Of a DNA stretch of 64,000 nt, positions 3,929 to 62,463 are shown piece by piece. The first letter of the stretch is position 1, and each line of letters begins with the position of its first letter. The stretch spans positions 56,058,386 through 56,122,385 of the forward strand of contig OX359248.1 of assembly GCA_947179485.1 (NCBI GenBank), given 5' to 3'. The stretch comes from Allacma fusca. Taxonomy: Eukaryota > Arthropoda > Collembola > Symphypleona > Sminthuridae. A program made the translations under genes and the position numbers. The notes below the pieces were generated by a model that did no database searches, had not been told where the DNA came from, and saw nothing but the letters and a program-made list of their open reading frames with translations.

Positions 3929-4974
3929 CAGTGCTCTCAGTTAGACACCCTTACTTACTCTTTACTCATAATTGTGTCTCTCATGATGTCCAGTACTTAC
4001 TTTTTAGAAAGTGAAACTTTCTTATAGACGAGTCTGTTCCGTCCGTCCGTCTACAAAATCTTGTGAGTCGCACAACTCAACAACGGAATGACATACGGAC
4101 ATGGGACTTCTCCCAAAAAATCGGACATAAATTCTAGATGTGCCTTTTGATATTTTCCCTGGCCCAGGGTCAACCGTTTGATCTCTGAAAATTATTTTCT
4201 GGATACAATTATCAAAAAATCCTGCATTTGCTATACCTTTCCAACGGATTGACGTATGGACATGCGTCCTTTACAGATAGCAATCAAACTTTTTCCGTAC
4301 CCTACTAAAAACCTTTAAATACAGTATAAGTTTCACTTTCCTGCACATGCAAACAAAGTTTGCCCAAATCAGTGCAGTGCACGGATTTTTACTTACTCAG
4401 GGGCTTCATGGTAGCTATCTTACTCACTACTCCCTCAAAATTTCGGGTCGCAGTGTAATACTTAATCTTTACTTACTTATTCGCAAAAATAAGCTGATTT
4501 TACTTACTGTTTACTTACTTTTGCCTGTATAGTACTCAAGTAATACTTACTCGCTTTCAAATATAATCCATATCACTGCCATCTTTGGTAGTGTAGTCAA
4601 CGACTCAAGTTTAACGAGTTGCATCGTCGCAAGTATTTAAAGGCATTGTTTGCCTATGACATGTGTTATCTGCCTCCATAAACCATACATAAGTCATGGA
4701 TATTGTCGGAGAACATTTTTTCTATGGTAGTTACTCCAGTAAAGAAGAGTTTACTTACTCAATACTTACTTTTTGATACTTTGCAGTTCGTCTTACTTAC
4801 TCATTACTTACATTACACCGGGGAATGAGTGTACTTACCCTTTACGTACTTAAACATCAACCTTTTTAAAATACTCATTACTTAAGCATACTCGCAGATG
4901 TGAGTACGAGTAAGTACAATACTCACTTACTCACTTTATGAAAAATCGAGTAATGAGTAAAATTGAGAGTACTG
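3929..4974. mobile_element. WA1: hAT-type word-array element
   Basis: Its ends are CAGTGCTCTCA and the complement of CAGTACTCTCA (10 of 11 match). It is flanked by perfect 8-bp duplications GTGTCACA at 3921-3928 and 4975-4982. The interior is dominated by TTACTTACTC on the left and its complement GAGTAAGTAC on the right. It contains the interspersed repeat at 4001-4390. No transposase coding is visible, so it is non-autonomous. Confidence 0.9.
4001..4390. repeat. Interspersed repeat, copy 2, inserted in WA1
   Basis: This is the same unit as 3335-3724. It interrupts the TTACTTAC word array of WA1 and is bordered by ACTTAC on both sides (3995-4000 and 4391-4396), which fits a short target duplication. 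Because the target is itself repetitive, the duplication length is uncertain. Confidence 0.8.
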
Positions 4975-5149
4975 GTGTCACATTTGTGTAGGTTACTGTA
5001 ACACATTCTTAATAGTTATTGTATGAATGATAAAAGATATGGATAACTTCTTAGTAAATAATAATTTGAACTGAATTGTATACAGTTTGTACTAAAATCA
5101 AAATGGACTATAGATGCAAATAAAAGGAATAGTGTATGTTACAGAGATG

Positions 5150-5345
5150 TTCAAATGATTTTTCCTTCCTTCAATCCTTCGAATGCAAAAAAATAGATCC
5201 ATATCCTTCCTTCAGACCTCTTCAGATTGAAGGCTTGAAAACAAAATTCCATCCTTCAACCTACCTTCAAAGTAGTTTTGTTGAGATCCTTCTTAAACCT
5301 TCAGTAATAATTAATATCCTACCTTCACCAAATTTCGTCTTCCGT
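5150..5345. repeat. CCTTC word array
   Basis: The words CCTTC and CTTCAA occur about every 10-15 bases. The layout resembles the interiors of the delimited word-array elements. No matching termini were found, so it may be a truncated or decayed copy. Confidence 0.5.
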
Positions 5346-6029
5346 AATATTTTACATATATTCATATATGAGACAACAAAGTCAACTTACAACTCACTGA
5401 AGTCACTTACTATTCAATGCTTAAAAGACAAACGTTGATACATCGATGTATTATTCATCGTTTCAATTTTTAAAAAGCATTTAATATTGGCGAGACTGAA
5501 TCGTCTTTGACACAGTATCAATAGTAAGCCTAGCTCGACTAGTTCGGATCAGCGCTCCATAAAGCTACCGAAAAAAAGTCTCCACAGACCATGTGATTGA
5601 TATCTTAATATTATAAAATGACCGTGATGGCATGAACAAACAAAGCATTTTAAAACTTCGCTCTCTCTCTCTCCTTAACGCGCTTTGTAGGTTCGTGTGT
5701 ACAAATTACCACAAAGGCTAAGCTTACTGGTATACCAAAGCATTATACAGTTGCAAGGACGGGGATATGTCACGGGCTACATTTATAACAACATAAGCAG
5801 CGACTATACCCATTTATATTAAAGAGAAGACACTAGAGCTACATATATGCACAAATTATTTCCCTTCTCTTGCATTTGCAGCTAAAAAGCACATTCATGA
5901 GTTTAGTGGTGAAGTGAAGTGGAGTTTTGTGTACGGACACCAGATGTCATTCGTGGTATTATTTTCGATGTTCAGAGAAACAGTAAATCTATGAATTATT
6001 CATTATTCCTTATTTCTATAAGCTTACTA
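5346..6029. other. No gene recognised
   Basis: No coding, RNA or repeat signal beyond a short CTCTCTCT tract near 5660. Confidence 0.5.
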
Positions 6030-6620
6030 CTGCTACCTCTACTCTATCATTAGAATACGTTGTACTGTCGAGTCAAGCCAGGCTGATACTTTACCAATTA
6101 AGGACAGGTGTGTTACGCACGCCTCTCTTGCCTGCGATTGGCCGATAATTTTTCATGCGTTTCAGCGCGAAATAAAAGAATGTATGCATATGCAATGTAA
6201 ATATCTTGCAACATGATTACGAAATTGAAACTCGATGGTTCACTCACTCATTACAAATACAGAGTCAATCTATGGTTGACAAGTAAACGATGGTTGACAG
6301 TCACTCTGTGGTAACTAGCATAAGCCTATCGGAGGCAAGAGAGGCGTGCGTAACACACCTATCCTTAATTGGTAAAGTATCAGCCTGGCTTGACTCGACA
6401 GTACTGTTCTACCTCTACTCCTACTAGTGGTGTCTAAATTACGACCCTAAATAACGCTCCTCTACTCACTTAATTCTATGCTAGCCTACTATTTTCCTCT
6501 ACCTCTATTATGCTAGTATTTTTGTATACCGCTACTGCATCTCTGCTAATGATTTGCCGATTTTAACGCCTCTACTCTATTTATACCTCTATTCACAGTA
6601 CAGTAGAGGTCCCAGCACCG
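6030..6620. repeat. CCTCTACTC word array interrupted by a MITE
   Basis: Words CCTCTACTC and TGCTACC flank the TA MITE on both sides, and the right side ends near GTAGAGGTCCCAGCACC. Apparently a word-array element was the target of the MITE at 6065-6401. Its own termini were not resolved. Confidence 0.5.
6065..6401. mobile_element. TA-target MITE with long inverted repeats, copy 1
   Basis: A 337-bp element with near-perfect inverted repeats of about 70 bp, starting CTGTCGAGTCAAGCCAGGC, bordered by TA on each side (6063-6064 and 6402-6403). TA duplication with long terminal inverted repeats and no coding capacity is the Tc1/mariner-type MITE pattern. A second copy lies at 42968-43919. Confidence 0.85.
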
Positions 6621-7203: not shown

Positions 7204-7466
7204 CAGGGGTCGGATTTTCAGATTTGTTAATGTGCTTCAGGGAAATTTCTTAGGCATACAGAGATTTTTAGATTGGTTGACCTTATTTGACAGGGATTTG
7301 ACGTCTTACAGGGAAATTATTATTGCCAACAGGGACTTTGAAAATCGTCGACCTTTTTTCAGCAGGGATTTTTGCAATTGTTGAGGACCTCCCAGCAGGG
7401 ACACTTGATTCAGCAGGTAAATTCAGAAATAATATTCCAGGAAGATTTACAAAAATTCGACCCCTG
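7204..7466. mobile_element. WA2: short hAT-type word-array element
   Basis: Ends CAGGGGTCGGATTTT and the complement of CAGGGGTCGAATTTT, with perfect 8-bp duplications TTTTCAAC at 7196-7203 and 7467-7474. At 263 bp it is the smallest complete copy. The interior repeats CAGGGATTT and CAGGGAAATT. It lies just upstream of, or within, Helitron-derived DNA. Confidence 0.92.
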
Positions 7467-10260: not shown

Positions 10261-10445
10261 AAAATTTAAAAGCACAATAGATGTAGTCACATAGTTATGT
10301 GATTTATTAATTTGGAAGCGCTTGATTTTTTTACCCTGATTGTTTATCAGAAAGCTCATAGTCGATACTACTTTCAAACCACCGGTACATCCAATAACAT
10401 TCCAACCTATGCTCTACGATTATAACTAGAGATAGAGAACATAAA

Positions 10446-17532: not shown

Positions 17533-17540
17533 CTAATTAT

Positions 17541-20708: not shown

Positions 20709-23142
20709 GTGTTTGCCCTTGTGGACTTTGTGAGTGAGAAAGGGACGGATGGCACTATTCCGTGTGAAATGGTTCATTTTAAGTGGATAAGCAAGAATTT
20801 GAAAAAATGCTACTGGCCTGGGAATAAAAACTATATCCAAGAATTCAAGCGTGGAGGGGAGAAACTTCAAAATTGGAAAGAATGTGATGTTGAAGTCAAA
20901 TTTGTTTCTGGTATTTTTTCAAAGTTTTAGTATTCAAAATAATTAGATGTAATCATCTATATAAATTGAAATTTAAAATGCTCGTGTGGAACATCATACA
21001 GCGTAATATATGGGATAACAAGATAATAGAAGGCAATTATTCATGAAACATGACATGAGAATATAAATTTTGCAGGGCTGGTCATTCGAATCGGAATTAG
21101 AATTGGAATCGGTATTTCATCCCTATGGTTTGGTATTTTTATCGGAATTGGTATTTTTAAATACATTTTTTCAAGTATTTCAATCTATAATGAATCGAAA
21201 AAAAATTGTATTTGAATTAGTATTCAAAATATATTTGAATACGGTATCCAATGCTTAGATATCCAAAAAATCAGTGACATATTGAAGTTTATCTCGTAAA
21301 TTCAATCAACATAGGGAATTTTCTCTCAGCCATTCCAAAAAATTTTAACTACACGTTAGAATACAAAATTTGGGATTACGTTTGACTACACAAAGTGACG
21401 CAGAGCAACGATGATAATTTTTTTCTGGGAATGAATTTGCTGCAATCTATATGCAGTGAATTTATTTGTCAGTAATTTTCTGAATTTGGAAAAAGGGGTC
21501 TAACTTTTTCAGGGGAAAAAATGCAGCTCTTTTTGTACTACCAGAATGTCCCTGAAAAACAAAGTAAACCAACAGGTCATACATGGTACTTGTGTAGATT
21601 AAGCAGTTATACCTTTATAAAATGGTCTGGCATATTCCAGTGGCTTCTTTTCATTCATAATTGTGGAATTTAGATACTTTCTGGTTTAAATTTAATTGTA
21701 GATATTTTTCAGGACTTTTACCTCCAGGTACTAATATTTAATAACTAAAGTATTTGAATTATATTGGAATTCATAGAAAATAATTGAATAAATTTGATTG
21801 GAATTTTCATTTTTTGAAACAAATACATTTGAATTGGGATTGGAATCCGTTATGATTAATCTTAATCAGAATCGTATTCATATGTTTCGAATACTCCAGC
21901 CCTGAAATTTTGTCGTACTTTAAAAATGAGTTCTTACATGGGAAGTTGTATTTATTTTAGATAATTTGGCTGATGTTCGCGAGTATCGGGATAAGCATAT
22001 ACAAAGCACTGCGACTGATTCAGAATTGGAAATGCAAGTGAATTTCCAAGCTCCCCAGAATGCATGCAGCCTCCCAGCTGTGAGTTCTTCCAATCAGAAT
22101 TATCCGGCCACTTCTAAGGTAGCTACAAGTAAATCGACTAGGAAAGAAATCCCTTCGGCTCCACAAATATCGGATGATTTAATTGACTCTGCCTTTCATG
22201 GAATTCCGAGCATTGAAATTGTTTTAAGCCCGGATAAAGGATAAGCCCAAGTAAAGAAACTGGAAACTTGGGAGTTCCCAATTTCATCAGCAGCAATGCT
22301 ATCCCGCCAGTTGCAGTGGTTCGTTCTTTCGATTCTGACGATATAGACTACAAATGTTTATTTACACTACTGTTTAATTAAATCTTAAATCCATGATATT
22401 TGATTAAATATTAATTTTAATTGTCGCCAATTATTTCTATTTAATAGTTCTTTTCCGATCCGTTTTGTCCAAACTATCTCGTATTGAGCATAAATTGGAT
22501 GAGGTGTCAAAATCTGTTGCCACGTTAAAATTATCTCCAACACAATGCTTAACGAGGCCGGATAACTGCCCTGATATTCCGATGAAAAATATTGCTGAAC
22601 TGGAGCATCTGAATTTGTACTTGGAAGTAGATGATAATCTGAATTACATGGTAACTATGGAATTATTTCGCACTACAATTTTTGTAATTTATTTTATAAT
22701 ATTTTAAAATAATTTTGTTGGAAACTAAATTACATGAGTATTTACTTATTAACACCAAGGCTCAAGATATTGCAAAAACTGGAGGTGACAATGACACCGA
22801 AGCTACAGATCGTGTTCTGGGAAAGATGTTTGCTAGCTCACTTGCCGTTCAACTTAACTGGAAGGGGATTCTGAAGAAAAATAGCCCAGCCAAAACTGGA
22901 CTATGCAAGTATGCTGCGGTGGTGAAGCTAATCTTAGGTAGTTGTTTCCATATTTACTACTTTTCACTTTTCCCCATTGTTTGCCAACTAACACAAAAGG
23001 GTATTAATATTTACAGATTCAGTGAGAATTATCGTACCATCCGCAACAGACAAGGCAATTCAAACCCGAACCAAGCATTGGCTGAAACATTCAAAGTCTC
23101 GACTTTCTCCGAGTGTAAATGTGGATAATGCAGATGATTAAT
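20709..23142 (+). CDS. Spliced accessory protein of the CACTA-like element (DUF4806-type)
   Basis: Exons can be traced by splice sites. At 20709-20910 the exon reads FALVDFVSEKGTDG and FKWISKNLKKCYWPG; an upstream AG suggests an earlier exon. From 21961 the next reads DNLADVREYRDKHIQSTATD, joined in frame across an intron that now holds WA4. From about 22449 to the donor after LNYM near 22649 comes a coiled-coil-like stretch, LSRIEHKLDEVSKSVATLKL. The exon 22712-22937 carries a DUF4806-like block with DRVLGKMFASSLAVQLNWKG. The last, 23018-23142, reads SVRIIVPSATDKAIQTRTKH and ends in TAA. Two-domain proteins of this layout commonly accompany arthropod mobile elements; their role is unknown. 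The second exon meets an in-frame stop near 22243 and an open frame resumes one frame over, so it may be broken there. Same strand and closeness to the transposase suggest one element. Confidence 0.6.
21073..21904. mobile_element. WA4: hAT-type word-array element in an intron
   Basis: Ends CAGGGCTGG in both orientations, with perfect 8-bp duplications AAATTTTG at 21065-21072 and 21905-21912. Words are CGGAATTGGAATCGG and TTTGAATTGG. It lies inside the intron between 20910 and 21961 of the DUF4806-type gene, so it would not disturb the reading frame. Confidence 0.93.
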
Positions 23143-33300: not shown

Positions 33301-33745
33301 ATAGAATTGTAATACCTAGACCTTTTCAATTATTACCTGATGCTTAAGCGTTTTTGTTACGCTTGAAATCACATTTTAATGATTTTATTAGCTTTATGTA
33401 GATGGCACATGATGCTCTCGTTTGAATCGAGCTCCTCTAGATTGAAATATTTTATTTTTATCTTAAAACCTCTGATAATTATGGTAACTTTTTGAGCTCG
33501 ACGTTTCCGGGACATTTACGTGTCCCGGAATACACCCTTCCGGGACACGGGACAATGACTGTCATTCCGGGACTGTCCCGGGCATTCCGGGACATCTGGG
33601 AACCCTAGTTACACTGCGTTTCAATCTTTTGCTTTTATGATTTTCATTTAATGTACAACGTTTTGTTTTTGTATTGGAGCTTTGTGCATTCTAATTTGTG
33701 CTCCTTTTTAGCAGTAGTTGAACTTTTACTATTATTTATTGTAGC

Positions 33746-41763: not shown

Positions 41764-42967
41764 CATTGCTCGGACTGTGTACGGGTAATACTCGGGTAAA
41801 TGGGTACGGTTACGGGTATGGGTACTACCCGGGAACAGAAGTTTCGTACTCGCAAGTACGCGGGTACTACCTGGGTACTCTGGATTTTAGACAATAAAGA
41901 GGGTACATATACGGGTCAGGGTATGGGTACTCACTCAATGACAATCAGGTAGTAACCAATAGTTGCGGGTACCACTATGCAAAATACCTGTACCGTGGAT
42001 GCTGTACCCGATTATTTTTGGCTACTTCAAGGATTCCTCCTGGGATGGATTACTACGGCTAACAATAAGATCTGTCAACCGTGGAGTTGCTTATTTCTTT
42101 GTGTACAGACACTTGCGTTAGTAACAGAGCCAATTGGTTTCGTCTCATTTATGATTACCTGGTAAAGTTGCAATCTAACACTTCTAGTAATTCTTCCCAG
42201 GAATCTAAAAAAGAAATAGAGCGTAAAATCAGTCAAAGCGTCTGTTTATCCACTTAAACAGTGAAGCTCATCAAAGGACTATTTCAAGGGCAGGTTCTTT
42301 AGATTCAATTTGATTAGCTTCATTGGGAGCGTAACATTACAATCATTTAAAGACGTATTACGAGATTAGTTCGGAATAAATATACATTTATTAGCAGATC
42401 CGTTTCTTAATGTCACAAATACCCAGGATTGGCCATTTGAAAACACCATAGCATTATGTCCATTGTCTAGGCAATTTGAGAATTTTCATTCCTGACACTT
42501 TGAGTATGTATTGCAGTGAATATTTAAAAAAATTTAGAATGGGAAATATCATTCCTTGCAGGCAATATTTATAATTCAGTCCCTTATTGTCCGTATATTG
42601 TTGATACTTTTGGTGTTAAAAAAGGAGGCATCTGAACTTTGCTTTCAAAACTTTCATAGGGATGAATTTGAGTCTTATTTCGCCTGCTCTGATCGAAAAT
42701 TTCTGTCTCGGGGTCCATAAATGTGAGAGACAGTTTTTGAATGTGTTTTATAAAGCTGTAATTAGGGGTGAGTATCTCGTTGGTTTTAAAATTCTCGTTT
42801 GTCTCGTTCTCGTTTCTGTAAACAAATACGAGAACGAGACGGCCAAAACATGGGTTTTTTGTTAAAATATATGCAACTTAATTGTAGCCTGCACAAATTC
42901 TGGTAAAAGAACGTAGAAATTTATATAATTTCACTTATCAAACCAATCTCAAGAGGCAAAATATATA

Positions 42968-43919
42968 CTGTCGAGTCAAGCCAGGCTGATACTTTACCAA
43001 TTAAGGACAGGTGTGTTACGCACGCCTAGGAATGGGACTGTTCCGGAATGTTCCAGGATTTCTTGGAATGGTCTGGTCCTTGAGCCTGGACCAGACCATT
43101 TGATCTGTTCTCCGTGTAGGACCAGGACCATATGGTCTTTTAGACTGTAGGACCGGAACCATCTGGTCCGTACAAATTGCTGGAACAGGAACATATGTTC
43201 TGTTCCTAAAAATAACATGGACCAGACCGGAACAGAACAGACCAGACCACTAGGACCGAATAGGTTTATAATATGATCACAACACGCAAGCATTTGACAA
43301 TTTAGATACTGTTTTGAATAATCGATCGTATCATGCTGTACAATCTAGCAATGCTATTCTATTCGCGGGAATTGGAAATACTTAATGGTCATCTATTGAA
43401 TCTGGTCCGACCAGTTGAAATACATGCTGGAACGTTCCAAATGGTCTGGGCCAAACAAAGGACCAAACATTCTGGTCTGTTCTTTGAGCTGGACCAGGTT
43501 TAATTGGTCTATCAAGGTTCTTGGACCAGGTACATTTGGTCCTTTCGTAACCAGGGAACAGACCGGAACAGACCATGGAACAGACCAGAACGGACCAAAA
43601 TTTCTGGTCCGGACCAGAACAGTCCCATTCCTACGCACGCCTCTCTTGCCTCCGATAGGCTTATGCTAGTTACCATAGAGTGACTGTAAACCATCGTTTA
43701 CTTGTCAACCATAGATTGACTCTGTATTTGTAATGAGTGAGTGAACCATCGAGCTTCAATTTCGTAATCATGTTGCAAGATATTTACATTGCATATGCAT
43801 ACATCCTTTTATTTCGCGCTGAAACGCATGAAAAATTATCGGCCAATCGCAGGCAAGAGAGGCGTGCGTAACACACCTGTCCTTAATTGGTAAAGTATCA
43901 GCCTGGCTTGACTCGACAG
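42968..43919. mobile_element. TA-target MITE, copy 2, inside WA11
   Basis: Begins CTGTCGAGTCAAGCCAGGC and ends with its complement, bordered by TA (42966-42967 and 43920-43921). It is nearly identical to 6065-6401 once the internal WA12 insertion (43027-43633) is set aside, for example the shared ACTTTACCAATTAAGGACAG and GCATGAAAAATTATCGGCCA segments. Confidence 0.9.
43027..43633. mobile_element. WA12: hAT-type word-array element inside the MITE
   Basis: Ends TAGGAATGGGACTGTTC in both orientations, with perfect 8-bp duplications CGCACGCC at 43019-43026 and 43634-43641. The uninterrupted target is present in the sister MITE at 6065-6401, which confirms the insertion boundary directly. Words GGTCTGGTCC and TGGAACAGGAAC; the first is shared with WA7. 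Confidence 0.97.
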
Positions 43920-45072
43920 TACATATATTTGGGTTTGGACCATAAAATTTGAAAACATGAAAACATTGAAACAAGTAAATGAAGGCCTCCTGTAATAATA
44001 GCTAGAACCAAGAGTTGCTAAACGTCTCAATTGGCCAAATGGTATAGTAAAACACCTCATTTTCCCCACTCATATTGGCTTAAAAAAGATTTAATTGCAA
44101 ACGACATTCTCGGTAAATAAAGCAAGATGTCTAGTACAGTCTCGTTGTTGCAAAAAGAACGAGACAAACGAGATTCTCGTCTCGTTGGCTCGTTATGCTC
44201 ACCCCTAGCTGTAATATAAAATAAATATTCAATCTTGCCTGCCACATTTATTTCCTGAAACCGCAATATTTTACTTGGAAAAATTATGATCAACTCGAAT
44301 GGGTCCGTAAAACATTTTCTATACAGTGTTAAAATATATTTTTTGTAAATACGTTATATCGTTGATGGAAAACTGGCATGATTAGGAAATTCTACTTTCC
44401 TCCTGTACTTTACTAACCTTGCGTCCAATTTAAAAGGTAATGCCAACAGGTCTTACCGTCGGACTCTTTTTAAAAGACTTTTGAGAAAACGATTAGCCGG
44501 GAACAAAATTGTTTCATGTTCTCGAAGTTGAAAAGCAAGATGTGGAGAGTTTACTATTAAAGAATTCATCTCAATTGTTTATCCTTACACCATACAAGAC
44601 TTGTTCAGTGACCAATTCGCGAGAACACATTTCATTTCATTCAGCAAGTTATTATTTTGGTGTAGTAGCATTTGAATTTCGCCAGTGTTTATTAAAAATA
44701 AATCAATTCAAAAAAATTTGAAAAAATTCACAAAATCACGCACATTTTTAATGCAGGTCAAAAAATTGACATTAAAAATTTTCAGCTGGGCAGGCAAATG
44801 TCGACGGGGGTTTTAAACAGGCCAAACTTTTAGTTCCCGAGTAATACCCGGGTACAAACAAGAGGTACTCGGGTACAGGTACAGATTTTGGGCACTTTAC
44901 GGGTACGGGTAAATTGCGGGTACGGGTACTACATTGTAGTTTCAGGTACGGGTACTGAAATAATTTATCCAGTTACTCGGGTATGGGTACGGGTATAGGT
45001 ACATCATTTTGTCGTACCCGATATTCGGGTATGGGTACGGATACACGGTTGCTGTACCCAGTCCGAGCACCG

Positions 45073-46401: not shown

Positions 46402-47683
46402 TAGTGGTCGGACTACTTCAGTTCAAAACTGAAATTTTCAGTTCAGTTTGGTTCATAGAAATTTTGGTTAAGTTTGAACCACAAACTAAACTGAATGGTT
46501 CGGTTCCAGTGTAAAACTGAACTGAACTGAATCGTTTGAACGGGATGTTACTATAGGCATTGGCATACCGATATAGCCATACGATATTATCGTCCATATC
46601 GTAGATTTTTCGAAGCGATAATTGAACGATAATAATTATCGTAACCTTCGAACGATATATCGGTCAGTTTCTATATCGTAAATACGTGGTTCAATTCCCC
46701 AAATAATGATTCACCCCCCAACATTTTAATTGTTAATGTATATTAACTAATTCAAAACATGTCAGTCAGCTCATAATAATACAATGTAAACTGTTGGTTT
46801 TCTGAACACATACGCTAAACATAAGTGTAACTTCTTTATTTGCTCATTGTCAGAAAAAGTTTTTCTGTAATTAAAATACCAAGTTTGTTTCTGTTGGAAT
46901 CAAAACATACTTGGTGGAACCTGTGTGATTCCTTATTGTTATCACCAGTTTCAGAAAAATTAATACTAATTATGCTGTCAGTAGGGTTAAAACATACTTG
47001 GTTTGCCGTACGTAAATCCTCATTGTCAGTACCAGTTATTATTCAATTAATACTAACTTTAGTATCGGTGTTCCGAATGGGATCAGTAAAAAGAAAAGTT
47101 CTTTGATAATTTTCCGAACAATGCATTTGTGTGGCACTTTTTGTTATAAACAGTAGTAATAAGGTGAGAATCTAATTAACCATCAATACTTCGGCAGTGT
47201 CGGTCGATTATTTTTATATTTTGTTATTAACCGATACGTTTCAAATTGAAACAAATATCGTTATATCGTCCTTCGATATCGTTATCGTCATTTTTAAGAT
47301 GAACGATAACGATATTTAAAAAATGACCGATACGCCAATGCCTAGTTACGCATGCACCATAAGTCCTGTTTCTGTCATGACGCACTTATCATCTCTGACG
47401 GTTTCAAATTGCATTGCTATATTATTCTATATATAAGAACATATATTATGTGTATGTTTGTTTATATACATTACTTACCAAAAAGGAAACTATTTGCGTT
47501 ATAGTTTTAACCTGGCGCGTTAAACTGTTTTGTAATCAGTTCAGTTCAGCTCATAGAGGAAACTGAACTGAACTAAACCGAAGAATAGCTAACTGAACTA
47601 AAATTTTGATTTTCGATTCAGCTCACTTTGTGAACCGAACTAAACTGAGTTTTACGAACCAAACTGAACTGGTCCGACCACTA
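46402..47683. mobile_element. WA13: hAT-type word-array element
   Basis: Ends TAGTGGTCGGAC in both orientations, with duplications CCTATATG (46394-46401) and CCTATATT (47684-47691), 7 of 8 matching. Words CAGTTCAGTT and AACTGAACTGAA. WA14 is inserted in the middle. Its right 133 bp are repeated at 49756-49888 as part of the 2205-bp duplication. Confidence 0.85.
46554..47344. mobile_element. WA14: word-array element inside WA13
   Basis: Ends TAGGCATTGGC in both orientations. Words ACGATATTATCG and TATCGTTATCG, like WA9. The flanks share GTTAC (left GTTACTA, right GTTACGCA), so the target duplication is imperfect or one end has shifted. Confidence 0.75.
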
Positions 47684-47707: not shown

Positions 47708-48589
47708 TAGGGCTCCTCACAACTCAGTTTATTGAGCTAGTTGAAATTGAATTTGTAATTGAAATTGAATTTTCAATTCAATTTATAGCGCTAATTTGTA
47801 ATTGATTATTTGTCAATCAAATACTAGAAAAATAATCAATTTGTATTAATCAAGTAGCAGCGTCAATAGTTGAATTGTCAATTACAACATTCAAAATTTG
47901 CGCAAGTTGAAATTGACTTGTAATTGGGATTAAATTGAATTGAAATTGAATTGAAATTGTTTTTTTTTCATTCTTACCCGTGTGTACCAAAAGACAAACT
48001 GGTTATGAAAATAAATTCGACGAAAATAGTGTTGGCTACATCTGATCAATTTGTTTGTTATGAAATTAAACTAAACTCATTCACCTTCCAACTGCAAACT
48101 AAGAACATCATTTTCAGGTCTGCCGATTTTGTATGATGCTCTGAAAGATATGGCTCGAATTTTTCCCTGGAATCGTATTTACAACTAATCATTTGAATAT
48201 CAAACAGATTTTCAGATTCGGTAATTGTTGGTTCCCCATTAGGTTTGGATTGGAGTTACTTTTTCAGCGTTTCGTTGCTTTTGTATTAGAAGAAATAAGC
48301 AGCACATTAAGGTGTCATTTGCTTTGGGACGTTGAGTAATCTCCGCGCTTTGATTACACATTACTGCCTTTGCGCGCATGCTTGCCTTAACATTTACTAG
48401 TTGTCAATTATCAACTTCAACTATCAATTTTTGGCAACGCAGCTATTTGAAATTGAAATTGTAGAAGTTTCCAATTATAATGACTAAATTGATAGTTGAT
48501 TTGTAATTGAAATTGAATCAACAACTAAAAAGCCATTTCTAATTGAAATTGATAGTTGCAATTACTACTTGAAATTGTGAGGAGCCCTA
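47708..48589. mobile_element. WA15: hAT-type word-array element, copy 1
   Basis: Ends TAGGGCTCCTCACA in both orientations, with perfect 8-bp duplications GTTGGAAT at 47700-47707 and 48590-48597. Words TTGAAATTGAATTG and CAATTACAACTA. The 61-residue open frame inside (from 47951) has no recognisable domain. Confidence 0.95.
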
Positions 48590-49150: not shown

Positions 49151-49296
49151 TAATTTTCTCCAGCACAAAATCTGCATCCATACATCCTTGATTACAAAGA
49201 AAATTATTAGTTATTCCGAAGCGAAAAAGGAAAGGTTGTTACCTAAGTTCAAAATGATTACGAATTGCATGAAACGTTGCACCTACAGTCTACAGT

Positions 49297-49755: not shown

Positions 49756-51960
49756 TCATAGAGGAAACTGAACTGAACTAAACCGAAGAATAGCTAACTG
49801 AACTAAAATTTTGATTTTCGATTCAGCTCACTTTGTGAACCGAACTAAACTGAGTTTTACGAACCAAACTGAACTGGTCCGACCACTACCTATATTACAG
49901 GTCAGTTGGAATTAGGGCTCCTCACAACTCAGTTTATTGAGCTAGTTGAAATTGAATTTGTAATTGAAATTGAATTTTCAATTCAATTTATAGCGCTAAT
50001 TTGTAATTGATTATTTGTCAATCAAATACTAGAAAAATAATCAATTTGTATTAATCAAGTAGCAGCGTCAATAGTTGAATTGTCAATTACAACATTCAAA
50101 ATTTGCGCAAGTTGAAATTGACTTGTAATTGGGATTAAATTGAATTGAAATTGAATTGAAATTGTTTTTTTTTCATTCTTACCCGTGTGTACCAAAAGAC
50201 AAACTGGTTATGAAAATAAATTCGACGAAAATAGTGTTGGCTACATCTGATCAATTTGTTTGTTATGAAATTAAACTAAACTCATTCACCTTCCAACTGC
50301 AAACTAAGAACATCATTTTCAGGTCTGCCGATTTTGTATGATGCTCTGAAAGATATGGCTCGAATTTTTCCCTGGAATCGTATTTACAACTAATCATTTG
50401 AATATCAAACAGATTTTCAGATTCGGTAATTGTTGGTTCCCCATTAGGTTTGGATTGGAGTTACTTTTTCAGCGTTTCGTTGCTTTTGTATTAGAAGAAA
50501 TAAGCAGCACATTAAGGTGTCATTTGCTTTGGGACGTTGAGTAATCTCCGCGCTTTGATTACACATTACTGCCTTTGCGCGCATGCTTGCCTTAACATTT
50601 ACTAGTTGTCAATTATCAACTTCAACTATCAATTTTTGGCAACGCAGCTATTTGAAATTGAAATTGTAGAAGTTTCCAATTATAATGACTAAATTGATAG
50701 TTGATTTGTAATTGAAATTGAATCAACAACTAAAAAGCCATTTCTAATTGAAATTGATAGTTGCAATTACTACTTGAAATTGTGAGGAGCCCTAGTTGGA
50801 ATGATGTTGACTTATGTTGTTTGGGCTGTTATGATTTCACTTCATACAATGGAACTTAATTTACACCACGAATGATGAAGTAGTTCATGTTCATAACTAT
50901 CATTTACAGCAATAACTTCAGGGAATACAATGTTTAATCAGTTTGTAGCTCCAGTCTCAAATCCAGCAAATGGGGTTTTAACCAGTCAGGAATACTTTCG
51001 GTAAGTTCAATGTCACTGTCTACATCATCACTGTCTGTTATTGAACACATTCAATAATGTACTCAATGTGACTGGCTGATGATACTAAATGAATTGCATG
51101 AATTTCTAACATTCAAAATTATAGCTCCTCACGAGTTCGAGTACGGGTCGAGTACGGTATCAACTTAAGATTAGTACTTGCATACGTCGGTCGAGTAGCC
51201 GTTTTCGTACTAGGACTAGAGTATATTTTTAACGAGTGTCAGAGCGAGTACGAGTACGTTCAAAGTATTTAAACCAAAATACGGGTACGAGTTCGGGACA
51301 TAAATTCAAAAGTATATACTTGAACCCGTACTTAGATTTATACGCGATACTCGAGTAATTTTCTCCAGCACAAAATCTGCATCCATACATCCTTGATTAC
51401 AAAGAAAATTATTAGTTATTCCGAAGCGAAAAAGGAAAGGTTGTTACCTAAGTTCAAAATGATTACGAATTGCATGAAACGTTGCACCTACAGTCTACAG
51501 TTAGTCGTCGGAACGGTTCAGTTCAGTTTTTTCCAATTCACTTCAATTCCCATGCTGAACTGAATTGAAACTAGATTTTCAATTCAGTTCAGTAAAAACC
51601 AAATCAATTCAGTTCAGTAAAACCCAAATCAATTCAGTTCAGATCGAAATTTTGAATTGAATTGAACTGAACTGAATCGAACACCAGCAGCGGTTTCTAC
51701 AAATATTCTTACAGATACTATATATTTCTAGAATTGGCGGCAGTGTTTTCCAAGTGCGCAACAAAAGGAAGCTAAATTAAGGAACGTCAAAACATCGGCC
51801 AAAGACTTAACGAATTAATTTTCTCATCGGCCAAGGACACGAACATATGTACCTCCTTCGTTTACATAAGAGGTATTACTATCTTTCAATCGTCATTTTG
51901 AAATCCATCGAAAAATTTCGAATCGGCTGCTCACATTGTCAAATTTTGAAGATGTTCCTA
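49756..51960 (+). repeat. 2205-bp tandem duplication, unit 2
   Basis: Second copy of 47551-49755. The shared dinucleotide TC at the breakpoints (CTATC at the right edge of unit 2, GCTC before unit 1) is the only homology at the junction. Confidence 0.97.
49913..50794. mobile_element. WA15, copy 2
   Basis: Duplicate of 47708-48589 inside unit 2, including both GTTGGAAT target duplications. It arose by segmental duplication and not by a second transposition. Confidence 0.95.
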
Positions 51961-53077: not shown

Positions 53078-53654
53078 CAGGGTTGGAAAAAAACCGGCTT
53101 TTATCAATAAAGGCCAAACCAGTGGCAAGAAATGGTAACAACCGGTTTTTATTTGATGTGGATTTTATTGGCTAAAATATAATAAACGCCATTACTATCC
53201 AGTTAAATAATCTAATATCCAGGCCAGTGGTTGACATTGGATTTTACCGGCATCATTTGGCTTGTGGTAATATTGGTAACAATTATGTCCGATCACGCGG
53301 CGTGGTCCAAAAAGTTAAAACTCCGCTTCTTTTAAGCCCGCACCTACTTACCCCCTATAACGATTTTCGATAGTTACTTAGCAGCCCAATTTAAATATTG
53401 TGGCAGACCGGTAGTTCTCTGCAGGATTCCTTTAGCCATTGTGGGTTTTATTCATTGCTGTCCATGCAAGCGTAATATTAGCCAAGCCGGTGGTACTTTT
53501 TGGTTAAAACCGGTTTTTATTGTACAATGGATTTATTTGGATACTATTGTTTATGGCCATTTTATACCAATCTATGCAACCGGACCAGGCCGGTTAGTAC
53601 CGGATTTTACCCAATTTTGACCAGGCCAATTCTTCTTCCCACTTGCCAACCCTG
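53078..53654. mobile_element. WA17: hAT-type word-array element
   Basis: Ends CAGGGTTGG in both orientations, with perfect 8-bp duplications CTCTTTGT at 53070-53077 and 53655-53662. Words AACCGGTTTTTAT and GGCCGGTT. Non-autonomous. Confidence 0.93.
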
Positions 53655-54212: not shown

Positions 54213-54249
54213 TATTGAGATTCTGGTAGAGGTGGGATTCGAACTTGAC

Positions 54250-54925
54250 TTCAGGCCCTAACCCGGAAGAAACCCGAAAAAGACTATTATACCCGGCCTG
54301 CCAACGGGCTAAATATTTGATATTCAACCTGGCCCGTTGTATTCACCTAACATTTTATGTAGCCCAAACCCGTCTCCAGAATTTTTTACTACCCGAACCC
54401 TCCAAAAACCTAATCTTTAAATGGGTTTAAAACTAGATGAAAACCCGGATTTTAGTAACAATCGAATCCGTTGTGAAACCTTTGTTTGCATATTCTATTC
54501 GATTTACATATTATATCCATCTTCTCTACTCAACACATTCAATAAATGTGCACTTAAGGAGCAAAATTTGTTATTGGTTCTGAAAATTTGCTAACAAACT
54601 ATCAAGCGGAAGGGACCGTTTCAAAATACTTAGGTATGTGTACGTATTGAATAATGAACAATTTTTTGAATGAAAAGCTATGATTGAACTCTGCACAACG
54701 TCAAACTGCCACCTATTTGTCCTAAATTCGATTGTATTAGGATTGTCGGGCCATTTATAATTTCTGACCCCCGGGAACCCGAACTGAAAAATAAATGCAG
54801 GCTCAACCCCGATCTTAACTCGGTTTCATTGTTTTAGTGCTGGCCAAACCCGGTCGCAGCCCGGTAGCCCTACTTAAGTTCGAATTTACAGCCCGAACCC
54901 GGTCACAAAGCCAGCTCCTGGGCGC
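54250..54925. repeat. AACCCGG word array
   Basis: The words AACCCGAACCC and CCCGG recur at both ends (54250-54480 and 54765-54915). Candidate ends CAGGCCCTAACC and the complement of CAGGAGCTGGC match weakly, and no duplication is seen. Confidence 0.5.
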
Positions 54926-55072
54926 CACCTCTAGATTCTGGCGTGGTACACAAGACATCATATTCAGCCAGTCACACTTTTTTATGACGAGTGATCTTTA
55001 TAAGTCAGTCAGTCAGTCGTAATTTGCAGGATTTTTGGATGTCATTTGCGTTCCATCGCTTAACACATTCCA

Positions 55073-55553: not shown

Positions 55554-55936
55554 GCCTTTCCACAGCAGAGTAGATGAGCGTTCGCGGTAGATTTGAATAT
55601 CGACACCGAGAGAGCAGACAGAGAGCATACATGGGCACTCTCACGAGGGAATGAGGGATGCCTCGCCCTCTCCCTCACAAATTGCGAGGGTGATGGCGAG
55701 TACACGTTGATTTTAGGCGCCCTCATGAACATGAGGGAGAGGACCTATGAATAGGATGTGAACGAAAGAGGGGGAGGCAGTGTACACATGTAAGCCCTCA
55801 TGATCTTATCTTACCTTAATCGTTATGCGAAAATCATACTTATATTGTTCTCTAGCAAGCCCAACTTCATAACGTCAGCTTCACCTACAGTAATCTAGCA
55901 AGTAACCGTCGTCTCATTCTCCATGTGATAGGATGA

Positions 55937-55964
55937 CTAGTAAAAGCCCTGTGCTTCGCACAGG
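55937..55964 (-). mobile_element. Helitron 3' terminus, minus strand
   Basis: CTAG (55937-55940) precedes CCTGTG-CTTCG-CACAGG (55948-55964). Read on the minus strand this is a hairpin followed by CTAG, as at 54186-54212. Confidence 0.6.
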
Positions 55965-56478
55965 GGCAATTACTTGAGAATTGTGAGAGTATACACAAAA
56001 CCGTAAACTGCTAAAGATCCCGTATCATGGCATGTCGAGAAGGCTTAATATTAATAACCCGCTTCTCTGGGCAAAGTAATCTCATATAAGATATGCGGAC
56101 TACTAATTGTACGACTAACAATTCGTTTCAAATAGCTAGTTGGCAATTTATCATCAAAAAATTATGGTACAACGCTCCAGCCCACTAAAGTTCTCTCCCA
56201 AACTCAATATTTGGTAATACACGGGGAATTTAACTAATCGCTTGATCAACTTAATACCAACCAACAATGTTATTAAATCTTGCTGTTGAATCACTGTATG
56301 GTGCTTCACCCCTTAGTGGATCAGCACAACGTGTTGATCAAGTTTGATTTTTTAAAATGATAATTTGTATATATCTCAGTTGTTATTAACGCAACATTTT
56401 GCAATTGATATTGTTACTAAAGTCCATGGTTCCTACAAATCAATCCTTAATTCGTAATGATATTTTTTGGGGATATCT

Positions 56479-56831
56479 TCACTGAAGAGGCAAAATGGAC
56501 TAAGTGCAATTGGTCTACATTGCAATGGTCTACATGACTTTTTCCTTAAAGGTAAAACGGAATAGTTGCAAGCTTTCCTGAAAGCAAAATGAACTACATG
56601 CAGTTTTCACTAAAAGCAAAATGGTCTACATGCATGTATACTTTCATAATGGCCATTCTGCTTTAAAGCGAAATTGTATGTAGACCATTTTGCTTTTAGA
56701 CGAAATTGTAAGTAGACCATATTGCTTTTAAAACTTGATGCATCTATTCCATTTTGCATTTAGTAAAACTGCATGTAGACCATTTTGATTTTAATCGAAA
56801 ATGCATGTATTCCATTTTGCCTCTTCAGTGA
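56479..56831. mobile_element. MITE-like element with CACTGAAGAGGC ends
   Basis: Ends TCACTGAAGAGGCAAAATGG in both orientations. The interior is a word array of GCAAAATGGTCTACATGCA and its complement. Flanks share only GATAT (GGATATCT, CGATATAA), so the target duplication is eroded. Confidence 0.7.
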
Positions 56832-57660
56832 CGATATAAAGATCATGTGTATGGATGTAAAGGCTTGTAATTAAAAAATAGTGAGCAAATAACTTCAGCA
56901 ATACAAATTCTGAGAATTTATCTGACGTTATATATAAAAACTGTTGCAATAGGTACTTTCAATTCCATTTGCTTTTTCCTAATAAGAATCCCACACTTAT
57001 GTGTACAAACTTCAGTCATTAAAATTCTCCTCTCCTCAAATTCGTCAGTGCTGCAACCGAACGTTGTTTTTCTCACTACCAGACTTAATTTAATCCAAAT
57101 TTGATGATTTATGTCTAATGTTTCTAATAATTATTATGATTAGCACTTTTAAGTGATAATCTAAAATTGCGTAATATTGCGAGCTTCCAGTATGCTGCAA
57201 GCAGTTGGTAAGTATATGCCGAGAAGCACAGCGAGCTGAGCGAGCTGAAAAAGCTCTTCTCTGCGACAACGTTTCAGCCCGCTGTGCTTCTCGGCTTGCT
57301 GTATATACCACCGACTTGCTTGGCTATATAGTGAAATGAGCCGCGAAGGTTTGAATTGTAAAGCCAAAGCCGCGAAAGTTAAAATCAACGGACAGGTCGA
57401 GATCAATAAGAATAAGGATGTTTAATGCGAGCTGAGGTACATTGTTTATGGCCCAGCGCAAAAATCCCAGTTTAAACTTTTAAAAGTAAAACGCCCTCCT
57501 GTTTACCTTAAAATTTCTCATACAAATATTAAACTCCAGAAAACAAATTCATTTTAGGATGCGGGAACACTTGAACATTTGTAAACAAAGGCGCTACCAA
57601 GGCTTTATATTTTATTAATGCTGTTTTCAGGCCCTAATATTGAATATTATTGGTCTGAGG

Positions 57661-58672
57661 CAGAGCTGTTTTCAAGTCCATGTCTGTCTTGGCTCATTCA
57701 AGTCAAGTCCCAAGTCCAAGTCATGTTCGTGCAAACGAAAATGTTGACTTGAAGTTTCAAGTAGAGGATCAATTCCGTAACGAAATTTGAACACGAACTC
57801 ATGTTCAAGTCTATTCAAGTCCATGTTCTTCTAAAAGACTTGACAACCAAGTCTATTTCATGTTCAAGTTAAACGACATGACCTGACTTGAGAAATGACT
57901 TGACTCCTCAAGTGCAATTCCCATGTCTAAACGAGCAGTTGACGTTTACTCCAGTGTTGCAAATTCCTACAGAAGTCGCACTCTCTACGGTTACTGAAAC
58001 ATTAACTAAGATTCGCAGGAACTATCAAGGAGCCATAAGCCTTTGAGAAAGCGTTTTTTATTAGAGGTTTGTCTGTCGTTACAAGTGTAGTGTTAGGATG
58101 GACAAACATTAATGGGCTATTTAAGTGTGTCTTCAACTGGAATTCCAATGAAATTTTTAATTGTTTTCAATGGGAACCGGTCTTTTAACCCAAAAAAGAC
58201 TGTCAATGATGGATGTAACTATTCAGCTGTGCATGTGTTTAAAGGCATGACTAAGATTAAAATCCAATTTGCAGAATTTTGATCAAGTTCGAGCTGAAGC
58301 TGTCGATAAAAAGTTTTAGGAGAAACGGTTGACTGAATTGCATAATATTTTTTAATACTCGTTGATATATTTAAACGTTATTTGTTACTTTAATCATTTA
58401 ATGATTAATAACATGAGTCCCATGTTCATGTCATGATCAAGTCACGTCTCAAGTCATGATCAAGTCACGTCATTTGACACCACACATTCCAAGTCCTATT
58501 CATGTCCAAGTCATGCAATAAATGACGTGAAGGAGTCTGATTTGAAAATTCATGTTCAAGTCTCAAGTCAAAATATCAAGTCCAGGTTGAACATATTTTT
58601 GGACGTGATATTCAATTCCAAGTCAAGTCCATGGTCGGGTCAGCGTAAAGACATGACTTGAAAACAGCTCTG
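57661..58672. mobile_element. WA18: hAT-type word-array element
   Basis: Ends CAGAGCTGTTTTCAAGTC in both orientations, with perfect 8-bp duplications GTCTGAGG at 57653-57660 and 58673-58680. Words CAAGTCCATGTTCAAGTC and GACTTGAA. No transposase seen. Confidence 0.95.
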
Positions 58673-59510
58673 GTCTGAGGTTATGGAACTACTTGTGACT
58701 AATCTTTGTTAATCAGAGACTGAGAAAACAGCTTTGTTCAATAATAATCATTTTCTGAGCTACTGGACCGATTAAAATGAAGAATTACTGTAAATAACCG
58801 ACAAAAATCCTTTGTATCAAAATATTGTGATTTGAATAATCATTTTTTTCCATTTTGCTAACAATTAAAATATAAGGAAGATAGACAATTTTTCCAATGA
58901 ATTGGAGCTTTAAACTTATTATTTACGTTACTTTCAGGACCAAATCGAAAAAACATTGCAAATTTTTCAAGATTTTTATACTTTTTACAATTATTTCAAC
59001 CAGGAAACCTAATACGTACCCGTACCCAAATACCCGGATAAAACCTGCACCAATAAAGGGCATTATTTTGATTAGTTTATTTCCACAAAATTTGTTTTCT
59101 AAATTAGTTTTGAAATCTAGGTTGTAAGAAATTTTATGAACTTTCTAAGCTAAGCAAAAGTTCCGTACATTCAGAACTGGAGGCATGTCGACAGACATTG
59201 AAGTTTTCTTATTTTAAAAAAGTGTCAGTGAACAAGTTATTTGAAAGCACAGGGATTGTAGGAAATTGTACGGTGGTTCATTCACGATCAATATTAATAC
59301 TACTAGTTCAAAGAAGGCTGTCGTCAAAATTGAAACTTCGCGCCGTCCCATTACATGAGACACTCGGGCGCCAATGAGCTGTGCAGAAGAGCGACAGTAG
59401 TACACATTATGTTACCATCCCCATTTTTGGTTGGCTATTAAATTGTTTTGTTTACTTGGACATGCTTATGCTATAGTTATCCTAAAGATACGGTAAGCAA
59501 GTGTTACTAC
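58673..59510. other. No gene recognised
   Basis: Only short, motif-free open frames. A run of ACCCGTACCCAAATACCCGG at 59018-59038 resembles the WA10 word. Confidence 0.5.
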
Positions 59511-60130
59511 TAGTGCTGTAATTTGTCCTTTTAGTATTGTATTGTACTTTGGCGAAAAGTACAAAAGTAGTACAACTAAGATATTGTTTTGTACTCCGAG
59601 TTTTGTTTTTGTTTTGTACTTCTATCAGATTGTTTTTGTTTTTGTACAATCTGTATTGTATTGTTCTAAGGTTCTAGAAGACGCTAGAAATTAGCTAAAG
59701 TGATAGTTGTATCTGAGTTGGCCGTTGGCTTTTACCACCTATTTCATCGATGTAGAAATGTCCCCTATGCGTGGACTACATTTACAAATCGCATAGTTCG
59801 TTTGTTAGACTAGGTCTTTTGTCTTTGTTAGACAACGACTAGATTTATCCAGGTCAACATTTAAACCATACGGTTAGCCAATTTTATTGATCAGTACCGA
59901 TTCATTGGTATCATATCTGATGCCATTGAATTGTCATTAGCCAGTGTTGATTTAATTCGTGACCTTTTTCATGACGTCTTACTAATCCACATTAAATGTA
60001 ACCTACAACTAGTACATCTTATCGGTGGCGTCTAATAATCAATATAATAATAATAATAATAGGGTTTTATTGGTTGATATAGTGGCCTCAGCCGTTACAA
60101 CCTTTAATAATCAATATGGTAACAGTCAAA

Positions 60131-60597
60131 GTCATGCAACTATTAGTGACACAGTAAGGTCAATCTGAGGTCGTGTGACTATTAGTGACACAGTAAGGTC
60201 AATCTGAGGTCGTGTGACTATTAGTGACACAGTAAGGTCAATCTGAGGTCATGTGACTACTAGTGACACAGTAAGGTCAATCTGAGGTCATGTGACTACT
60301 AGTGACACAGTAAGGTCAATCTGAGGTCATGTGACTACTAGTGACACAGTAAGGCCAATCTGAGGTCATGTGACTACTAGTGACACAGTAAGGCCAATCT
60401 GAGGTCATGTGACTACTAGTGACACAGTAAGGCCAATCTGAGGTCATGTGACTACTAGTGACACAGTAAGGTCAATCTGAGGTCATGTGACTACTAGTGA
60501 CACAGTAAGGTCAATCTGAGGTCATGTGACTACTAGTGACACAGTAAGGTCAATCTGAGGTCATGTGACTACTAGTGACACAGTAAGGTCATGTGAC
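60131..60597. repeat. 39-bp minisatellite inside WA19
   Basis: About 12 copies of a 39-bp unit containing ACTAGTGACACAGTAAGG and TCAATCTGAGGTCATGTG. Variants cluster by neighbour (CGTG then CATG; GGTC then GGCC then GGTC again), showing local copying between adjacent units. Confidence 0.95.
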
Positions 60598-60900
60598 CTG
60601 AAATTGACCTTATTGGGTCACCAATAGTCTCATGACAAATTACGGTTTTAAGGGGCGCATGACCTATAATGAAACTTGGTGAGAAACTAGTAGTAAATCA
60701 CCTATGATTGACTTTATTGGCGCATTAATGGTCACATGACACTAGAATGACATACTCAATGTAAGTGTATATTTTATATGGGCGATAGTAGGCGAATCTA
60801 CCAATAATTAGTCAATGCCCAGTTTTTGTGCTTTGACGTGTTTTTTCACGATTCCAATTACACAAATTAATTCCTATGTGCTCTAGAAATCTATTACAAC

Positions 60901-62260
60901 CAGGGATGGGAAATTTACAAAGACGACCTGCAGGATTGGATTAACGGATTAAAGGAAAAACTTTCGATCACTTGGATTGGATTAACGGATTTTGCATAAA
61001 ATTCCGATCACCTGGATTGGATTAACGGATTAAAGCAAAAAATTCCGATCGCCTGGATTGGATTAACGGATTAAAGCAAAAAATTCCGATCACCTTAATT
61101 GGATTAACGGATTAAAGCAAAAAATTCCGATCACCTGGATTGGATTAACGGATTAAAGCAAAAAATTCCGATTACCTGGATTGGATTAACGGATTAAAGC
61201 AAAAAATTCCGATCACCTGGATTGGATTAACGGATTGACGGGGAAACTCCAAACATTTTGATTCGATTAAAGATTTGATGAATAAAACTTCGCAGATTTA
61301 CGTGGGATTTCCAATAAAGATGCAGATATTAAGGATTGATGAACAATATCAAAACGTTTCTAATGGAAGAGCACATAGACCAATTTAAAGCTTATATAAA
61401 TGAGGTTTACGGGCCAACATTTCTTAATACATACTGAGATCGTTTACACTAATGGCCATAATAAATTCGGTAATTCATATTGGGATAATGCGCTGAATCA
61501 AATATCCTAATAGTTGGTTCAAATTACAAGGTTGTTCCCATTTATTCAAAGAAATTAGTATGCAGTAAATTATTGGGGATGAAGTGGAACCAGGAATTAC
61601 AAAGATATAGGTCAAATCGCAATTCCAACCTACATATTTATGATACACATTTAAATTATTGTATTGAACAGCTGAAATGCTAGTAATAAAAATATGCACA
61701 TATTTCAGGCAAACTTAAAGAAAATTTGTTACTCCGTAATTAATACAAAAAAGCTTAAAGCTTTTACTATGCTCCCACGCGTTCTTTTCTCAGATTTATA
61801 TTTTTACAAACTGTAACGTCATGATTCCTGTTTGAAAACGCTAGCCTTGGAATTGCGGCATGTCAACAAACACAAGCTACATGTTCATTATGAAACCGCT
61901 AGATGTTGAAAAACGTGAAAAAATGTAGCAATGACATAGCAGGAGACATAATCCAATCCACACTACTGACAGCAGTGGATTTTGGGATTAGGATTGACCG
62001 AATAATTCATCAAGTTTTGGATTAGGATTGACCGAATAATTCATCAAGTTTTGGATTAGGATTGGGGATTAATTCGTTTCCATGTAAATAATTGGATTAA
62101 ACTAATAGATTAAAATGAAAGCATTAAGCCGGGATTGAGGATTAAAGATTAGATTCAAGTTTCCACAACACTTGGATTGGGATTGGAATTAAATAATTTT
62201 TATAAATTTTGTAATCCGGGATTAATTTAATCCCGGATTAATAATCCATTCCCATCCCTG
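60901..62260. mobile_element. WA20: hAT-type word-array element inside WA19
   Basis: Ends CAGGGATGGGAA in both orientations, with perfect 8-bp duplications ATTACAAC at 60893-60900 and 62261-62268. Words GGATTGGATTAACGGATT on the left and AATCCGGGATTA/GGATTAGGATTG on the right. Confidence 0.95.
60933..61240. repeat. 41-bp tandem repeat at the left end of WA20
   Basis: Eight copies of a 40-41-bp unit: GGATTGGATTAACGGATT, then AAAGCAAAAAATTCCGATCA, then CCT. The word of WA20 has here become a regular tandem array. Confidence 0.95.
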
Positions 62261-62463
62261 ATTACAACAATCACTTTAGTAAATTTCTAGCGTCTCTAGA
62301 ACCTTGAAACAATACAATTTGGATTGTATTGTTTTTTTCAATTCCTGTTTTGTTTTTGTTTTAGCTTTCTATCTCGAAATTGGATATTGTTTGTTTAGTT
62401 TTGTACCAAAGACAAAAACAATACAAAAGTACAAAACTAAACGAGTACAATATTACAGCACTA

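Follow-up and report, generated by a model that had tools for sequence, protein, structure and literature searches.

Word arrays at the ends of hAT transposons in Allacma fusca: a shared direction bias and an aligned word switch between sister families

The window analyzed here is a stretch of 64,000 nucleotides from the springtail Allacma fusca (G000:C12:56058386-56122385), and its transposable elements are mostly non-autonomous hAT transposons of many families. In most of them, the two ends are filled with near-copies of one short word that differs from family to family, and the words tend to keep one direction over both ends. Loci fetched from outside the window in the same genome (L-numbered below; 392.7 Mb, 91 contigs) include a pair of related families in which aligned words have switched at the same base. 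Our best explanation for the whole, to which we give a probability of about 0.72, is that the ends serve as binding-site platforms for the BED fingers of the transposases, with the words switching along with the finger.

The switch was found among the relatives of element P, which lies at positions 59511 to 62463. P and its relative at L023 share their termini, and the same 12-bp sequence, TAGTGCTGTAAT, also forms the two termini of L018 and the right terminus of L009; the left terminus of L009 is one base off. The array words of these elements are TTGTAC in L023 and P, TTGTTC in L018 and TTGTTG in L009. Scored as 8-mers they are mutually exclusive: TTTTGTTG occurs 7 times in L009, TTTTGTTC 7 times in L018, and TTTTGTAC 7 times in L023 and 6 times in P, with the other two words at 0 in each case. 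As 6-mers the separation is less complete, one or two copies of another element's word occurring in each of the four. In the genome, the terminus TAGTGCTGTAATNTTGT occurs 368 times, against 0 for its reversed control, and TAGTGCTGTAATATTGTTC, the form with TTC, occurs 155 times.

The ends of L023 and L018 can be aligned at 69-71% identity, 102 of 338 aligned bases being different. Of the 12 TTGTAC sites of L023 that align, 11 have another base 5 in L018, compared with differences at 7 of the 60 other word bases (Fisher 1e-7); L018 has TTGTTC at seven of the 12 sites, TTGTTT at four and a non-word at one. When the comparison starts from the words of L018, base 5 differs in L023 at 8 of 10 sites and the other bases at 2 of 50. 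For P against L018 the corresponding counts are 9/10 and 7/50, and in the reverse direction 9/11 and 6/55, while the same-word control, L023 against P, gives 2/12 and 7/60. The aligned word sites occur on both strands and at both ends. A second case, namely L016, L019 and L015 (CGGAT in L016) against L022 (CGGTT), is kept as weak support: the variable base differs at 18 of 25 sites between L016 and L022 and the other bases at 16 of 100, as against 1/26 and 9/104 in the same-word control, L016 against L019. Read most simply, these counts would mean that each word is under purifying selection and that the preferred base has changed. The concerted switch suggests, as evolutionary support, that the words are transposase-binding sites, and that a whole array may change its word together when the enzyme that reads it changes.

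The search for transposase-bearing relatives of the window elements succeeded for P (L009, L018 and L023). A candidate from the family of element E (31324 to 36165), L010, was rejected as the autonomous parent of that family because its transposase sits in a nested element with L026-type ends (L010:2354-5270), which is inserted in an E-family element. A genome search for the hAT dimerisation domain yielded 860 candidates, of which the best 150 were scored and were all over the cut-off; the domain was not found among the 25 open reading frames (ORFs) scanned in the window, and none of the best 150 of the 860 lies there. The domain exceeds the curated cut-off in all three relatives of P (2e-12 in L009). 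A zf-BED match is over the cut-off in L009 (2e-6) and below it in L023 (17.7 vs 20.6 bits), and the same motif is found by pattern in L018 and L033. L009 is a single ORF of 642 amino acids whose C-terminal part matches Hermes in the PDB, and the transposase pieces of L018 and L023 are 45-59% identical to it. Among 5.8 billion proteins (scored for the 7994 candidates with most words in common), L009 has 7 relatives at E<1e-10, the best of which is 36% identical.

The BED helix reads GAFTTNLKDH in L009, GAYSTNLKNH in L018 and GAYTTNLKKH in L023. The residue preceding the first histidine of the helix is K in L023, L033 and L038, N in L018, L036 and L037, and D in L009. As for the words, the tip of L037 carries mainly TTGTTC, TTGTTT and TTGTTA, and L033 joined to L040 carries TTGTAC. 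In Hermes, according to the accessible part of its published description, bases are contacted by S66, Q64, N67 and R70 and by the main chain of R63 and T65, with H71 as a zinc ligand (PMC10368747). Judged by spacing, Hermes R70 would fall on the D/N/K position, and this helix residue is possibly base-reading; sequence search aligned the L009 finger, and weakly that of L018, to ZBED1 and not to the finger of Hermes.

The elements of the window were collected by a scan for terminal repeats starting with YA, with a terminal match of at least 10/12 and a perfect (8/8) flanking duplication, using 20 Markov shuffles as the control. Seventeen end pairs were obtained, against a mean of 0.20 per shuffled window. 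Two of them were removed, namely 16600-17352, an inner pair within element C, and 47708-50794, a cross-pair between duplicated copies; a second scan added 21073-21904 and 54227-54933 (termini 9/10). The final perfect set consists of the 16 elements of a preliminary description of this DNA, whose duplications were found again where about 0.2 would be expected by chance, and the newly added 55626-63220 (R). Fifteen of the 16 are independent, because a 2205-bp tandem segmental duplication (99.6% identical) produced 49913-50794 from 47708-48589. Nineteen elements with matched ends had been counted before, three of them imperfect; two with 7/8 duplications were recovered (32468-32861 and 46402-47683), and a third was not identified. 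An 8-bp target site duplication (TSD) is a hAT trait, present here at 8/8 in the 16 elements and R and at 7/8 in these two. The terminal inverted repeats (TIRs) of the hAT superfamily follow the rule YANNG, as do the termini of most window elements, with exceptions in J, whose fifth base is A, and R, which starts CATAC/CATAG. Together with the relatives that bear a hAT dimerisation domain and a BED finger, these traits uphold the earlier assignment to hAT. The elements are as follows.

3929..4974, element A: 8/8 TSD GTGTCACA, TIR CAGTGCTCTCA, word TTACTTACT
7204..7466, element B: 8/8 TSD TTTTCAAC, TIR CAGGGGTCG, without a significant word; sequence relative at L031
16581..17532, element C: 8/8 TSD CTAATTAT, TIR CAGAGCTATGCA, word GTATTTTG
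21073..21904, element D: 8/8 TSD AAATTTTG, TIR CAGGGCTGG; word not above shuffles
31324..36165, element E: 8/8 TSD TCATGAAG, word AGTAGTGG; encloses F and H; related copies at L010 and L016
31663..33607, element F, inside E: 8/8 TSD GTTACACT; word CCGGGACA, chiefly at the right end and not above shuffles
32468..32861, element G, inside F: 7/8 TSD, word GGTCTGGTCC
34321..34736, element H, inside E: 8/8 TSD GTAATACA, word AACGATAT
42763..44207, element I: 8/8 TSD GCTGTAAT, word AAACGAGA, which beats shuffles only in the relative at L021
43027..43633, element J, nested, 607 bp: 8/8 TSD CGCACGCC, word TCTGGTCC
46402..47683, element K: 7/8 TSD, TIR 12/12, word GTTCAGTT; encloses an array element with the word ACGATA
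47708..48589, element L: 8/8 TSD GTTGGAAT, TIR TAGGGCTCCTCACAA, word GAAATTGA
49913..50794, second copy of L: product of the 2205-bp tandem duplication, no independent insertion
53078..53654, element M: 8/8 TSD CTCTTTGT, word GGTTTTTA; copy at L025:8465-8863
54227..54933, element N: 8/8 TSD GATTCTGG; word CGAACCCG, not above shuffles
55626..63220, element R: 8/8 TSD ACAGAGAG, TIR 11/12 but not YANNG, word TCGCCCTC; encloses O, P and Q
57661..58672, element O: 8/8 TSD GTCTGAGG, TIR CAGAGCTGTTTTCAAGTC, word TCAAGTCC; partial copy in L025
59511..62463, element P: 8/8 TSD GTTACTAC, TIR TAGTGCTGTAAT, word TTTTGTAC, not above shuffles by the 8-mer test in the window copy
60901..62260, element Q, inside P: 8/8 TSD ATTACAAC, word TGGATTAA

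A possible relative of R at L020:7820-8509 has the word CGCCCTCA.

To score the arrays, the top 8-mer (at most one mismatch) was counted in the terminal 250 bp of each end and compared with 60 shuffles for window elements or 20 for those at other loci. It beats all 60 shuffles in 12 of the 18 window elements (A, C, E, G, H, J, K, L, M, O, Q and R), so that the earlier claim of one word array per element stands for these and not for the remaining six; the relatives of I (L021) and P (L023) beat their 20 shuffles. At other loci, 20 of 22 elements beat all of theirs, the exceptions being L026:4601 and L027:8166. This set comprises the elements with 8/8 duplications in the fetched loci and leaves out L010 and L013, the word of the latter not exceeding its shuffles (10 vs a maximum of 12). 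Among the 26 longer transposase loci fetched, 12 have an 8/8-duplicated element around the transposase domain (L009, L015, L016, L017, L018, L019, L022, L023, L024, L026, L028 and L030), L010, L013 and L014 have 7/8 boundaries, L033 reaches 8/8 only once joined to L040, and ten show no convincing boundary; no 8/8 element was found in L001-L008 (about 3.2 kb each). The variety of words, previously thought unusual for one window, is real; further words at the other loci show that it is not specific to the window.

The words are concentrated at the ends. Their density per kb at the ends compared with the interior is 50 vs 0 in O, 44 vs 0 in J and 48 vs 4.4 in C, the weakest contrast being that of A (24 vs 12.8); B, G and H are too short for this comparison. 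In 17 elements (34 ends), the first word copy (at most one mismatch) lies 11-15 bp from the tip at 17 ends, and the longest direct match between the two sides measures 8-20 bp, depending on the element. A helical spacing of the words was considered and found not convincing (27, 30 and 29 at lags 10-12 vs about 17 at other lags, by eye).

In the earlier description, the words of one end stood in inverted orientation to those of the other. This is contradicted, left-right matches being mostly direct. When the left and right subterminal zones are compared with the tips trimmed, direct 8-mer matches outnumber inverted ones in 17 of the 18 window elements, and across six settings this number ranges from 15 to 17; among 600 control pairs outside elements (R not excluded), 57% are direct-biased. 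With the word chosen on one side and counted on the other, 91 copies have the same direction and 37 the opposite one, compared with 105 and 74 in 150 control pairs. Among the 22 elements elsewhere, direct exceeds inverted in 19, with the reverse in L020, L026:8628 and L027:8166. In 33 of 40 elements the two ends agree in the majority direction of the word, in 4 they are opposite and 3 are undecided, while 160 control pairs gave 48, 44 and 68, respectively. Counted per family (n=32; grouped by termini and words with one representative each, L023 standing for P), the direction is the same in 27, opposite in 3 and undecided in 2, and direct exceeds inverted in 29 of 32, or in 26 of 32 once composition is corrected. 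The agreement in direction is nearly equal within ends (0.62) and between ends (0.64), and for this reason direction looks like a property of the whole element. The direction shared by both ends is a bias, not a rule.

This bias could serve the pairing of unlike ends, the two ends not being mirror images because the words tend to keep one direction. The shared direction may instead result from selection against long inverted arrays, through fold-back, breakage or double-stranded RNA; this alternative, which concerns the polarity only, is a possible one to our minds, although we lean away from it. Direct arrays would indeed avoid extended mirror-image ends, and a bias as moderate as this one (about three in four words, by arithmetic from the concordance fractions) is in keeping with it. 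Against it, inverted words are common within single ends, e.g. those of G and J, and several elements have more inverted left-right matches than their shuffles. Moreover, the accessible text on Hermes describes antisense repeats running along one end and sense repeats along the other, and ties function to the asymmetry of the ends (PMC10368747).

In the explanation that we favour for the arrays themselves, each end would be a platform of repeated sites, recognised by the BED zinc finger at the N-terminus of the family's own transposase. The oligomeric enzyme would engage the words through several of its fingers and hold the end while the TIR is cut, and the words would be conserved individually, tending to one direction over both ends. 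We infer that BED fingers bind the words, and one helix residue may set the choice of word; if the preference of the finger shifts in a transposase lineage, the words would change together at the same base. We put forward more tentatively, at somewhat less than even odds, that hAT families split by such retargeting: a change of the BED finger, centred on the residue before the first zinc histidine, would come first, and single-base substitutions would then arise in parallel at about a dozen sites over the two ends, the polar array being rewritten letter by letter, until sister families stop cross-mobilising.

A number of observations weigh against this explanation. The top 8-mer does not exceed shuffles in B, D, F, I, N and P. 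Neither L018 nor L023 is an intact gene, the reading being split over separate ORFs in both. A finger is present in L036 and L038 with no terminus within the fetched stretch, L035 has a terminus with TTGTTG words and no readable finger was found in it, and L039 has neither. The link between residue and word rests on three lineages, because copies within a lineage are not independent. The spacers alone of L023 and L018 are 59% identical, as against a mean of 47% and a maximum of 55% in 20 shuffles; since they barely exceed the shuffled maximum, the positional homology is supported but partly word-driven. The alignment of the L009 ends to those of L023 is not above the shuffled level, and that of L016 to L022 is weak (54-58% identity). 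Part of the direction bias is background composition, because control pairs also lean to the same direction; agreement at the level found is that of a bias only, and R, L020, L026:8628 and L027:8166 lean opposite in at least one test.

It is also conceivable that the arrays are functionless by-products of repeat turnover (slippage or abortive gap repair), with families differing through different seeds. Satellites can arise in transposons, and some arrays hold true tandem repeats, e.g. the 41-bp units in Q and the 39-bp units in P. We nevertheless consider this unlikely, in view of the location of words at the ends and their rarity inside in most elements compared, and of the aligned words of L023 and L018, which differ in parallel at one base with the other word bases largely kept and the spacers diverged. 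Slippage would be expected to copy the spacers too. The longest direct left-right matches in the 17 elements are short. Least probable, and by our estimate very improbable, is a role of the words as promoter elements of the transposase gene or as sites bound by host proteins in place of transposase: the arrays flank the gene, and host proteins are said to bind the subterminal regions of maize Ac, going by the title of a reference, but the arrays stand at both ends even of short elements such as J, and changes of word follow the transposase lineage within one genome with one set of host proteins.

Subterminal repeats have been called a defining feature of hAT elements in the accessible part of a study of Tgf2 (PMC4890040), and the arrays place the present elements in this known kind. 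The comparisons that follow likewise concern the available portions of the papers cited. In Hermes of Musca domestica, the subterminal repeats that the BED finger reads are short and lie immediately inside the terminus; the ends have 17 and 14 AAG(T/C) sites, with STR2-7 of the left end antisense and STR1-5 of the right end sense, and the BED site lies at left-end positions 11-27 (PMC10368747). The first word here lies in that same place at half of the ends, and Hermes, read from the tips, has the same element-wide direction by our reading of its text. Unlike those of Hermes, the words here are scored as 6-8 bp, are family-specific and are known from sequence alone. At the left end of Tol2, the terminus is followed by a palindrome, with an antisense repeat next to come (PMC10368747). 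In maize Ac/Ds, AAACGG repeats in the terminal 200 bp bind transposase and are kept in many non-autonomous elements; there the family has one word, with no family-to-family switch mentioned in the portion available (PMC3260210), whereas the words here differ by family. The 17 and 18 subterminal repeats of Tgf2 are described as 'haphazardly present' (PMC4890040), unlike the placement of words here, which is not haphazard in direction. The transposase of Herves from Anopheles gambiae binds a repeated 8-bp subterminal motif at both ends, and such motifs differ among hATs (PMC3143072); that was a study of a single element, and the present one concerns a series of related families. Finally, CGGBP proteins and hAT DNA-binding domains, including BED and Hermes domains, have diverse 8-mer preferences, and the binding motifs of four hAT proteins match their own subterminal regions (PMC8097297). 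That work treats the protein side and, in the part available, not the evolution of the arrays, which is the side seen here.

No description of concerted word switching, or of a direction shared over unrelated families, was found in the open-access literature searched, and within that limited search both look new. To our knowledge, how a transposase and tens of binding sites change specificity together is an open problem. Here a single genome contains sister families whose termini nearly match but whose words and fingers differ. They open the question to direct testing, and a recognition code could be obtained for BED fingers, a domain also present in host transcription factors. If retargeting is true, the genome records an evolving protein-DNA recognition code of which the words are the readable half. 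Should the direction bias prove general, it could be of use in predicting at which end the complex nucleates in a hAT element not yet studied.

Several elements of the window are nested: G in F in E, H in E, J in an insertion within I, and Q in P. A check of the duplications against an empty site bore them out for F, in that the E-family copy at L016 lacks F and has a single GTTACACT at the insertion point. The I-family copy at L021:7495-8035 is flanked by a perfect duplication of its own and does not contain the inner insertion of I (about 42967-43919); the latter, which encloses J, has long TIRs (about 70 bp, by eye) and is not hAT-looking. The M-family copy at L025:8465-8863 is likewise bounded by its own perfect duplication. 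Within K, 46549-47349 has the TIR TAGGCATTGGC and ACGATA words, ACGATA being also the word of H, with no clean 8-bp duplication by eye. Candidate transposase remnants in F were hAT-like by eye and were rejected, since Pfam matched nothing and one piece had no homologue, and a BED-like piece of E at 35810-35977 gave no BED match. The true tandem arrays inside P and Q are 39 bp x 11.8 (60131-60591) and 41 bp x 7.4 (60933-61236), perhaps satellites growing inside hAT elements. The tandem segmental duplication with a period of 2205 spans 47543-51967 and copied L together with adjacent arrays. The word CGGGTACGGGTA is found at about 48915-49172, apparently within a truncated relative of L028:8233-8877.

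The remaining features of the window are as follows.

10381-11287: 74% similar over 940 bp to L016:8052-8967, the latter mostly within a 566-amino-acid ORF
18606-20666: gene ORFs, transposase-like by eye, one part weakly matching DUF4218 (E 8e-5, below cut-off)
39542-40009, minus strand: ORF resembling a fragment of a LINE reverse transcriptase by eye, with no match in Pfam
40209-41042: ORF weakly matching the THAP domain (E 1.7e-4, below cut-off)
27521-29436, minus strand: ORFs of a DCAF12 gene, pointing to animal DNA
27273-27469: 36-bp tandem repeat of 5.5 copies, adjoining the ORF that ends the DCAF12 gene

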